The notes under the pieces: model-generated
What the model saw: the letters and a program-made list of their open reading frames with translations, nothing else
Told to the model about the DNA's origin: nothing
Databases searched by the model: none
Assembly (NCBI GenBank): GCA_020355325.1
Contig: CP070664.1
Span: forward strand, 1,642,168 to 1,682,308
Length of the DNA: 40,141 nt
Direction of reading: 5' to 3'
Origin: Caldifarciminota bacterium
GTDB taxonomy: Bacteria > Hydrothermota > Tepidihabitantia > SM23-42
Program-made: the position numbers and the translations under genes
In this document: in pieces, positions 4,724 through 22,801 of the stretch
How positions within the stretch are numbered: position 1 is the first letter of the stretch
Layout of the letters: every line of letters begins with the position of its first letter

Positions 4724-5389
4724 ATGCCGAACAGTGCAATCATCGTTGCTGCTGGTGCAGGAAAAAGATTTGGCTCAGCAAAGCAATTCTATGAATGGAG
4801 GAAACGCCCTCTTTTCCTCTATGCACTCGATGCCTTTGAACTGAATAAGAGTATCGATAAGATCATCCTTGTGGTCCCTCAAAAGAGCATACGCGGTATC
4901 CAAGCAATGATGAAGAATATGAATTATAAAAAGGTACATTCAATTGTTGCGGGTGGAAAACGCAGACAAGATTCAGTCTTCAATGGTCTAAAGGCTCTGC
5001 AGAACAGATCTGGGATTGTCGTGATCCATGATGGTGTTCGACCCATTGTCTCACAGGCTATGATAACAAAAGGCATCAAATTATGTCGTACATACCGCGC
5101 AGTTATTTTCGCCTTACCGATATATGACACCGTAAAAAAAGTAAACCGCGGTATTGTGAAAGGAACCATACCGAGAAAGAATATGTACCTCGTTCAGACA
5201 CCTCAATTCTTTGAGAGCAGCCTTATTCAAGAGGCGTATAAAAGGGCAAATCGTGCAGTAGAATACACTGATGAGGCAGCCATTCTTGAATCATTAGGAA
5301 TACCTGTTCACTGTTTATGCGGCGACAAGGATAATATTAAGATTACAAAAAAAGGTGATTTAAAAATTCTCGATCGTATTCAACCATGA
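4724..5389 (+). CDS. ispD: 2-C-methyl-D-erythritol 4-phosphate cytidylyltransferase IspD
   Basis: IspD joins MEP and CTP to give CDP-ME in the non-mevalonate isoprenoid pathway. The 221-residue protein shows the nucleotidyltransferase P-loop-like AAGAGKRFG at about 9-17 followed by KQF. It also has GGKRRQDSVFNGL, VIHDGVRP, QTPQFF and YTDEAAILE, plus the C-terminal GDKDNIKITKKGDL. All match the family, and length is typical. The gene is first in a plus-strand operon and overlaps dxr by 4 nt (ATGA), a pairing with the next-but-two enzyme of the same pathway. It appears to be translated from a leaderless mRNA. No IspF fusion is present. Confidence 0.95.
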   Translation: MPNSAIIVAAGAGKRFGSAKQFYEWRKRPLFLYALDAFELNKSIDKIILVVPQKSIRGIQAMMKNMNYKKVHSIVAGGKRRQDSVFNGLKALQNRSGIVVIHDGVRPIVSQAMITKGIKLCRTYRAVIFALPIYDTVKKVNRGIVKGTIPRKNMYLVQTPQFFESSLIQEAYKRANRAVEYTDEAAILESLGIPVHCLCGDKDNIKITKKGDLKILDRIQP

Positions 5390-20462: not shown

Positions 20463-21578
20463 CTAAACAGCCGCCTCATAGATACGATACTTTTTATAGA
20501 CTTTACCACCCATCTTCTGGATTGCGTTATTTGTGGGATAATTATCCTCTAAAATCCACGACAACTCACCGCCTGTATAACCAAGACGTTGACCAACCCT
20601 GAACGACTCGAGAAAGAGCAGAGATTCCAGTCCCATTTTTCGATACTGTTTCCGTACACCCATAATCATCAAGCGCGCTTCTTTGATCTTATTCTTATAA
20701 TACAAAAATTTTAGCATCTCTATCAGTCCAAGGCGTCCATTCAATTTCTTAAGCACAAAATTATAATTGGGGACACCAAGCGAAACCGCGGCTGGAAGGT
20801 TGTCGATCTCAATAATGAGTACGAGGTCCGCGAGAACGAGCGGTTTAAGGTTTTCAGCGATCGCATCAAACTCAGCATCAGTCATTGGCACAAACCCCCA
20901 GTTTCGGCTCCATGCATCGTTGTATATTTCTTTAATTTTCTTTACTTCATTCGCAAAATCTTTGAGGTTCACCGGCCTTATCTTCATGTCCCGTACCCTT
21001 CTGCGTACGATTGAACAGAGCCGCTCGAGATATTCGAATGGCGCATCCTGTATATCGACGTAGTACGCATAAAGATCACGTGCCTTTGATAGACCGGTCT
21101 GTTCAATGAGTCGTGGATAATACTCAAAATTGTGCGTCATCATGATAAACGGCGGTGTATAAAACCCTTCAATGAGTACGCCACACTCATCATTGGTCGA
21201 GGGGTTCATCGGACCAATAAACCTAACCATACCCTTCTCTCGGTGGAACTCCTTTACCTTATCGATTAATGCACGTGCTGCCTCTTCATCATCATCGCAT
21301 TCGAAGAAACCAAAATAACCTGTCTTCTCACCCCAGAATTCAATAAAATTGCGATCGATGATTGCACAAATCCGACCGGCAAGACGCTTATCACGATATG
21401 CCAGAAATAGTTCTCGTTCTGAATGTTCCCAGAACGGATTCTTCTTCTCATTAAAGAGTTTGTATACCTCACTTTTCAAAGGTGGCACCCAGTACCGGTT
21501 GTTTTTATACAGATGATAGGGAAAATCGACAAACGCCTTGAATTCTTTCTTAGATTGTACCGATGTTACTGATATCAC
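20463..21578 (-). CDS. GNAT-fold acyltransferase-like protein paired with an SPT-like gene
   Basis: The 371-residue protein belongs to a conserved family often beside AONS/SPT-type genes. Recognisable segments are FVDFPYHLYKNNRYWVPPL near the N-terminus, KNPFWEHSERELFLAYRD and GYFGFFECDDDEEAA. GPMNPSTNDECGVLIEGF and MMTHNFEYYPRL follow. The C-terminal half (about 190-365) looks like a GNAT domain ending with LGYTGGELSWILEDN and NNAIQKMGGKVYKKY. No signal peptide or membrane helix is obvious. In Caulobacter a GNAT-fold enzyme (bCerS) acylates the amino group during ceramide synthesis, with spt in the same gene set. The 4-nt overlap with the SPT-like gene suggests an equivalent step here. That is inference; the family itself is uncharacterised as far as I know. 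Confidence 0.65.
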   Translation of the reverse strand: MISVTSVQSKKEFKAFVDFPYHLYKNNRYWVPPLKSEVYKLFNEKKNPFWEHSERELFLAYRDKRLAGRICAIIDRNFIEFWGEKTGYFGFFECDDDEEAARALIDKVKEFHREKGMVRFIGPMNPSTNDECGVLIEGFYTPPFIMMTHNFEYYPRLIEQTGLSKARDLYAYYVDIQDAPFEYLERLCSIVRRRVRDMKIRPVNLKDFANEVKKIKEIYNDAWSRNWGFVPMTDAEFDAIAENLKPLVLADLVLIIEIDNLPAAVSLGVPNYNFVLKKLNGRLGLIEMLKFLYYKNKIKEARLMIMGVRKQYRKMGLESLLFLESFRVGQRLGYTGGELSWILEDNYPTNNAIQKMGGKVYKKYRIYEAAV

Positions 21579-22765
21579 TTCTTGTTGAGCCCAAATTCTC
21601 TGGCACTGCGCTTAAATACATCTAATACGATAGTAATGTCTTCATCAGTATGCGTAGCCATATAACTCGTCCGTATCAATGCCCGACCGGGTGGTGTTGC
21701 CGGAGATATGACAGGGTTGGCAAATATACTATTTGCAATGAGCATTTTCCAAAATGCAAAGCATCGTTCTTCTTCACCAATAATAACCGGTATCACGGGA
21801 GTCTGGCTCTCTCCCGTGTCCAGTCCTATTTCTCTAAAACCGCTGAGTACTCTCTCCGTAATATCCCACAATCTCTGCCTTCTCTCAGGCTCACTCTTGA
21901 TGATATCTAATGCCGTCTGGGCACTCGCAACAGAAGCCGGAACCATACTCGCTGAAAATATCAGTGCTCTTGCTCTGTGCTTAATGTGCGTGATAACATC
22001 TTTATTCGCCACAACAAAACCCCCGAGTGAAGCGAAGGCCTTACTAAACGTCCCCATAATCAGATCCGCCTCGTCGAGAACATTGAAATGTTCACAGGTT
22101 CCTCTTCCCCCTTCTCCATGAACACCCACGCCGTGTGCATCATCAACGAGAAGGCGGCAATTGTATTTTTTCTTCAAACGCACGATTTCAGGAAGATTTG
22201 CAAGGTCGCCTTCCATGCTGAATACACCATCAACAATGATCAATTTTCCGCGTTCTTTTGGTAGCGATTTTAAAATTCTTTCTAAATCCTCCATATCATT
22301 ATGACGATACTTCTTCACCTCAGCATAGGACAGCCGGCAACCGTCAATAATTGATGCGTGATCCTGACGGTCAATGATAATAATATCGTCCTTCCCACCG
22401 ATCGCAGCGATAATACCGAGATTAGTCTGAAAACCCGTTGAGAATACGATCGCACCGTCTTTTCCAAAGAATTCTGCTAAATCGTTTTCCAGTTTGACAT
22501 GGATGTCGAGGGTACCGTTAAGAAATCTCGAACCAGAACAGGTTGAACCATACTTCTCGATGGCAGCGATGGCGGCCTCCTTCATGCGCGGGTCTGCGGC
22601 AAGACCAAGATACCCATTGGAACCAATCATGATGAATTCTTTACTATCGATACGCACACGATGGTCTTGAGCAGATTCGATGGGCGTAAAGTATGGATAA
22701 ATGCCTAATTCATACGCCCTGTTTACTTCCCTGACAGTCGCCTGACACTTATCGAATAAGTCCAT
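21575..22765 (-). CDS. Alpha-oxoamine synthase, serine palmitoyltransferase-like
   Basis: The 396-residue PLP enzyme condenses an amino acid with an acyl-CoA, releasing CO2. Motifs are YPYFTPIESAQDH, IMIGSNGYLGLAADPR, GSTCSGSRFLNGTLDIH and VFSTGFQTNLG. DRQDHASIIDG has the cofactor-stacking His136, VDDAHGVGVHGEGGRG has Asp209/His211, and the Schiff-base Lys242 is in GTFSKAFASLGG. The PYF-PIES N-terminus and the CSGSRFLNGT motif resemble serine palmitoyltransferases more than BioF or Kbl, though glycine C-acetyltransferase cannot be excluded. No acyl carrier protein gene adjoins it. The neighbouring GNAT-like gene supports sphingolipid-type synthesis. Its promoter places the -10 box 8 nt before ATG 22765, so the mRNA is probably leaderless. 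Confidence 0.85.
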   Translation of the reverse strand: MDLFDKCQATVREVNRAYELGIYPYFTPIESAQDHRVRIDSKEFIMIGSNGYLGLAADPRMKEAAIAAIEKYGSTCSGSRFLNGTLDIHVKLENDLAEFFGKDGAIVFSTGFQTNLGIIAAIGGKDDIIIIDRQDHASIIDGCRLSYAEVKKYRHNDMEDLERILKSLPKERGKLIIVDGVFSMEGDLANLPEIVRLKKKYNCRLLVDDAHGVGVHGEGGRGTCEHFNVLDEADLIMGTFSKAFASLGGFVVANKDVITHIKHRARALIFSASMVPASVASAQTALDIIKSEPERRQRLWDITERVLSGFREIGLDTGESQTPVIPVIIGEEERCFAFWKMLIANSIFANPVISPATPPGRALIRTSYMATHTDEDITIVLDVFKRSAREFGLNKK

Positions 22766-22773
22766 AATAGTTG

Positions 22774-22801
22774 ATTATATACATATTCCTATTGAAGTCA
22801 A
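22774..22801 (-). promoter_or_regulatory. Promoter of the SPT/GNAT operon, predicted leaderless transcript
   Basis: TTGACT, 16 nt, TATAAT, 8 nt, ATG (minus strand). No Shine-Dalgarno lies between the -10 box and the start codon. Confidence 0.7.

Follow-up and report, generated by a model that had tools for sequence, protein, structure and literature searches.

Two overlapping genes on the 40,141-nucleotide stretch of DNA analysed here (hereafter the window) very probably constitute a small operon whose products carry out the initial steps of ceramide synthesis in a bacterium related to WOR-3 and Stahlbacteria. The window belongs to a genome assembled as a single contig of 2,846,334 bases and 92% complete, and the relationship of the host is drawn from the nearest named records of the second protein of the pair, which come from candidate division WOR-3 bin1061 (74%) and Candidatus Stahlbacteria CSMAG_2146 (72%). 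A candidate bacterial sphingolipid (ceramide) module had been proposed in a preliminary description of this DNA, and it is now supported by the placement of the first enzyme in the serine palmitoyltransferase (SPT) clade, by homology of the second to YghO and by the presence of a CerR-type reductase in the genome. The features concerned are as follows.

22774..22801, minus strand: promoter-like site TTGACT-16-TATAAT, matching 11 of 12 consensus positions, with its end 8 nt upstream of the spt ATG
21575..22765, minus strand: spt, SPT-type alpha-oxoamine synthase, 396 aa, ATG start (from NCBIfam, SPT homology and tree)
21575..21578, minus strand: 4-nt overlap GTGA, in which GTG is the start of the GNAT gene and TGA the stop of spt
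20463..21578, minus strand: proposed CerS/bCerS, tandem-GNAT acyltransferase of the YghO/CC_1154 family, 371 aa, GTG start (from YghO identity, SPT-linked clade and structural model)

The SPT-like character of the alpha-oxoamine synthase, remarked on earlier, is borne out by its ranking against NCBIfam models, its active site and its position in the SPT clade. The protein matches Pfam Aminotran_1_2 with 209 bits, and its best NCBIfam model is SerpalmtaseCFB, the Bacteroidota-type serine palmitoyltransferase, with 550 bits; weaker matches are to BioF (387 bits) and glycine C-acetyltransferase (375 and 297 bits). Since its scores lie below the curated equivalog cut-offs of NF047600, NF047599 and NF047603 (550 against 640, 406 against 500 and 347 against 670 bits, respectively), it is filed under none of the three. 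The best solved relative, with 423 bits, and also the best characterised match, is the Bacteroidota SPT from Sphingobacterium multivorum (PDB codes 3a2b and 8guh), to which 188 of 373 aligned residues are identical (50%). The active-site residues of that enzyme are described in PMC10196870 and, when its numbering is transferred through the alignment, N52, Y54, G80, S81, H138, S185, D210, H213, T241, S243, K244 (the PLP lysine) and R367 prove to be kept in the window protein. Those from H138 onwards are the catalytic residues, H136, S183, D208, H211, T239, S241, K242 and R365 in window numbering, and are invariant in 84 of 84 other SPT-type rows. Two other positions differ from the S. multivorum enzyme, A79 being Ser and M271 Ile in the window protein, and both changes are frequent in relatives. 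The motif TFSK, found also in Azospirillum BioF, was dropped as an SPT diagnostic by itself.

It is highly improbable that the PLP enzyme is instead BioF or Kbl and that an unrelated acetyltransferase adjoins it by accident. A single enzyme family embraces SPT, BioF and Kbl, and models for the two alternatives match as well (the 387 and 297 bits given above), but a 35-row mixture-model tree (34 rows hand-picked from 98 SPT rows, plus S. multivorum) places the window protein within a 30-row clade containing the S. multivorum, Sphingomonas and E. coli BL21 SPTs (support 99/99), while L001, a second synthase of the same genome, takes the Kbl place (100/100) and BioF, whose branches are long, stands apart. 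A faster tree, of 52 of the 98 SPT rows and including HemA, again groups it with characterised SPTs (97), apart from Kbl, BioF and HemA; proteins exceeding 480 aa entered the trees as their C-terminal 430 aa. The pair is flanked by purB and an isocitrate dehydrogenase-type gene (Iso_dh), a check of the neighbourhood found neither biotin genes nor threonine dehydrogenase (tdh) beside it, and the pairing with a GNAT gene is kept across phyla. On tree and gene neighbourhood the BioF and Kbl identities are rejected, and the phylogenetic comparison with Spt, BioF and Kbl suggested at the outset comes down on the side of Spt. L001, being Kbl-like, is ruled out as the SPT of the genome. Its own locus (L001/L213, G000:C1 around 2370776-2375100), where gene names were assigned by eye from translations, comprises acyl-CoA synthetase-like, small ACP, Kbl-like synthase and oxidase-like genes in an apparent operon, and is apparently an ACP-linked Kbl variant.

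Searches of Pfam and NCBIfam returned no family match for the GNAT protein. BLASTP, by contrast with these, aligns it over its full length with E. coli YghO (137 of 375 residues identical, 37%, E 2e-78), and PMC9386255 matches yghO (ECD_02850) to its Caulobacter counterpart CC_1154, which encodes an N-acyltransferase (ceramide synthase). The tie to CC_1154 is therefore through YghO and this published correspondence; with that qualification, the comparison with bCerS envisaged earlier has yielded a full-length homologue of the published counterpart of the Caulobacter CerS/bCerS. The AlphaFold model (mean pLDDT 95.3) is that of a tandem GNAT, in line with the fold first noted, and resembles MAB_4324 from end to end (7q3a_A; Z 24.3, rmsd 3.6, 305 aligned residues). 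Homologues of the protein occur in 38 of 41 relatives. The model may also be superimposed on an N-myristoyltransferase (1nmt_A; Z 15.5, rmsd 5.1, 282 aligned). N-myristoyltransferases are tandem GNATs using long-chain acyl-CoA, though a shared fold shows no function.

A tree of the GNAT proteins was built from 107 of 124 rows, proteins longer than 420 aa being cut to their C-terminal 372 aa. The window protein falls in a 12-row set (support 99) in which every member has an SPT gene adjoining. The label used for such adjacency in the tree covers three divergent cases and one downstream case, which are separated out in a count of SPT genes directly upstream on the same strand: 47 of 74 GNAT rows, these being rows from contig loci whose upstream sequence extends 1.3 kb or more. 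Fourteen other rows form a clade of their own (98) that has no SPT in the vicinity (L085, L087, L089, L091, L099, L107, L116, L137, L142, L148 and L206-L209), so that family membership by itself is no proof of ceramide synthesis. That clade, which includes two Cloacimonadota loci, might supply the unlinked ceramide synthase in phyla that showed none close to spt; the only neighbours shared among its members were those of three Acidobacteriota/Aminicenantes loci.

The third enzyme of the known pathway, a CerR-like reductase, had been suggested as something to seek in the genome, and it is present, remote from the pair. A profile built from 31 spt/cerS-linked reductases gave one clear match of 302 bits (G000:C1:278513-279463, about 1.38 Mb from the pair), the next dehydrogenase scoring 108 bits, and E. 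coli CerR as a single query also led to this locus (26%, 73 bits). The reductase gene is flanked by a PorV-like gene on one side and, on the other, by a TPR gene followed by a NusG-type gene; identity as the hopanoid epimerase HpnA was rejected, since the HpnA model gives 89 bits where its cut-off is 368. Regarding acyl supply, the best match in the genome to AasR (30%, 107 bits, G000:C1:303330-304550) is away from spt, and an AcpR-type search gave two PP-binding matches, neither near spt. Elsewhere in the window's class, in family f4, four to six CerR-like genes stand in tandem at L183, G028:C8, G030:C73, G036:C10 and G038:C137, the array at L183 (G032:C82, 1065-7840) lying beside an amidohydrolase gene.

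Across 120 genomes of the phylum, SPT was found in 57, GNAT in 54 and CerR in 56, with SPT and GNAT together in 50 and all three in 44. For SPT a score of at least 438 bits was required, which retains 57 of the 66 genomes having matches with E up to 1e-95. At the thresholds used, GNAT was not found in seven of the 57 SPT genomes, nor CerR in six of the 50 with SPT and GNAT. The co-occurrence of SPT and GNAT has a Fisher p of 3e-21, a figure that ignores shared descent. In 36 of the 50 genomes the two genes are adjacent on the same strand, in two they lie within 1.4 kb and in 12 they are apart or on other contigs, although in one of these 12 (G010) the pair is cut by a contig end. In the 40 genomes of the window's class, SPT occurs in 37, GNAT in 37 and CerR in 36, the pair is adjacent in 35 and all three are present in 33. 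Among 80 loci taken from genome contigs, 57 carry SPT and GNAT, and 37 of the 57 also carry a CerR-like gene; beyond the phylum, loci with SPT and GNAT include examples from Myxococcota, Bacteroidota, Elusimicrobiota, Zixiibacteriota and Planctomycetota. Since the adjacency recurs both in genomes of the phylum and in GNAT rows of other loci, it is not due to chance.

Plasmids also carry genes of this kind. Synthase-GNAT-reductase triplets are present on Streptomyces and Rubrobacter plasmids, and a Klebsiella michiganensis plasmid typed as conjugative (L195, NZ_CP106839.1) holds a whole sphingolipid cluster of acyl-AMP ligase, CerR-like, ACP, spt, YghO-like and lptFG genes. A plasmid of Priestia megaterium, a member of the Bacillota (L194, NZ_CP137804.1, 6001-7215), bears a gene whose product shares 57% identity with the SPT of the window; neither a GNAT nor a reductase gene is annotated alongside.

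The ORF coordinates agree with the 4-nt overlap of SPT-like and GNAT-like genes first described, the letters GTGA being shared, and an overlap of exactly 4 nt with an SPT gene is seen in 29 of the 124 GNAT rows. The overlap likely reflects translational coupling. At the GNAT start, neither an upstream promoter-like site of the spt kind nor a Shine-Dalgarno site was seen, which would suit coupling through the overlap. The promoter-like site before spt is the best of eight found by the scan, for which shuffles gave 6.8, and similar sites scoring at least 10 of 12 precede spt in all 22 distinct upstream sequences from loci with SPT at least 75% identical (the window included), the spacer being 16 nt in every case and the distance to the start codon 5-8 nt. 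Letter-shuffled controls scored as high in 43 of 4400 cases, and more distant upstream sequences reached a score of at least 10 in five of nine. Since the promoter ends 5-8 nt before the start codon, the predicted transcription start coincides with the ATG or lies immediately upstream of it, and the spt transcript, judged from its upstream sequence, would be nearly or fully leaderless. Strong promoter-like sites also end 5-7 nt upstream of the window gene starts at 4724, 32594, 32692 and 37263, so that leaderless transcription is probably general in the lineage.

In the pathway we propose, Spt would join an amino acid, most likely serine, to a fatty acyl thioester to yield a 3-oxo long-chain base, the tandem-GNAT CerS would place a second acyl chain on the amino group of that base, and the remote CerR-type reductase would reduce the 3-oxo group after acylation. 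The pair could in this way make an N-acylated long-chain base, as first suggested. A more specific and tentative version holds that the leaderless, coupled spt-cerS message specifies a unit that acylates first, passing the 3-oxo base straight to CerS to give 3-oxo-ceramide, with CerR acting later and elsewhere. If true, this would be a natural gene arrangement favouring the disputed order of acylation before reduction. Doubtful to a similar degree is the eukaryote-like order for the same three enzymes, in which CerR reduces 3-oxo-sphinganine and CerS then acylates sphinganine. This order has been proposed for Caulobacter by one group (PMC11324152), BT_0972 of Bacteroides reduces 3-ketosphinganine (PMC9278070), and cerR lies directly beside spt and cerS in many phyla. 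Against it, a different group assigns Spt and bCerS to the cytoplasm but CerR to the periplasm, and describes oxidised ceramide when cerR is deleted (PMC11087976), and the genomes inspected from the window's class keep spt and cerS close but cerR elsewhere.

The choice of serine may also be questioned, since the pair could make 1-deoxy or other non-serine ceramides from alanine, glycine or cysteate, a reading we regard as unlikely. SPT takes alanine and glycine at low efficiency (PMC10196870), and many 1-deoxyceramides are reported from anoxic Black Sea water (PMC11334938). Residue 79 (S. multivorum numbering), equivalent to Cys133 of human SPTLC1, is Ser rather than Ala in the window SPT; however, the 84 relatives have Ala in 26 cases, Ser in 25, Thr in 22 and Val in seven, with four gaps, and so variable a position is not diagnostic. 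Furthermore, in the comparison with PDB entries the cysteate enzyme reached 235 bits and SPT 423.

The pathway of Spt, CerS and CerR is already known in bacteria (PMC11087976, PMC11324152), and the window pair belongs to this known ceramide synthesis, not to a new system. Caulobacter crescentus has the same three functions as the window genome in spt (CC_1162), cerS/bcerS (CC_1154) and cerR (CC_1164), with a GNAT-type N-acyltransferase and an SDR-type reductase in both. However, its cerS is a transcription unit of its own, and its Spt uses a special acyl-ACP from AasR and AcpR (PMC9386255, PMC11324152), whereas in the window a 4-nt overlap joins spt to cerS, neither acpR nor aasR adjoins spt, and cerR lies far off in the genome. 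According to a statement in PMC11324152, bacterial cerS is always in a different operon from spt; the overlap in the window, and in 29 of the GNAT rows overall, is an exception to this. In the E. coli BL21 cluster (L037; yghO, AasR, CerR, AcpR, spt and lptFG), where yghO is accompanied by spt and by genes for a fatty acyl-AMP ligase, an acyl carrier protein and a member of the epimerase/dehydratase family, YghO and Spt are respectively 37% and 39% identical to the window proteins, and its CerR too has a counterpart in the window genome. There, however, yghO and the spt operon are transcribed divergently and the SPT is of a proteobacterial subgroup, unlike that of the window. Runella (L119, L123, L133) shows spt-cerS-cerR with the same 4-nt overlap, although in Runella and Reichenbachiella cerR is near spt whereas in the window genome it is distant. 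Spt-like proteins have been predicted in Black Sea MAGs of 38 phyla, often with bCerS and CerR nearby (PMC11334938); many uncultured phyla there, with predicted Spt, bCerS and CerR, resemble the window lineage. WOR-3 and Stahlbacteria are unnamed in the main text of that work, its supplements aside. Subscription papers and supplements aside, no literature pairing either group with sphingolipid was found.

These results suggest that a widespread tandem-GNAT family without a Pfam or NCBIfam match merits annotation as ceramide synthase when encoded beside spt. The compact spt-cerS pair could serve to settle whether acylation comes before or after reduction in bacteria. For the lineage itself, they add to the predicted range of the ceramide pathway a candidate phylum that has hardly been studied, and in which 44 of 120 sampled genomes have all three genes.
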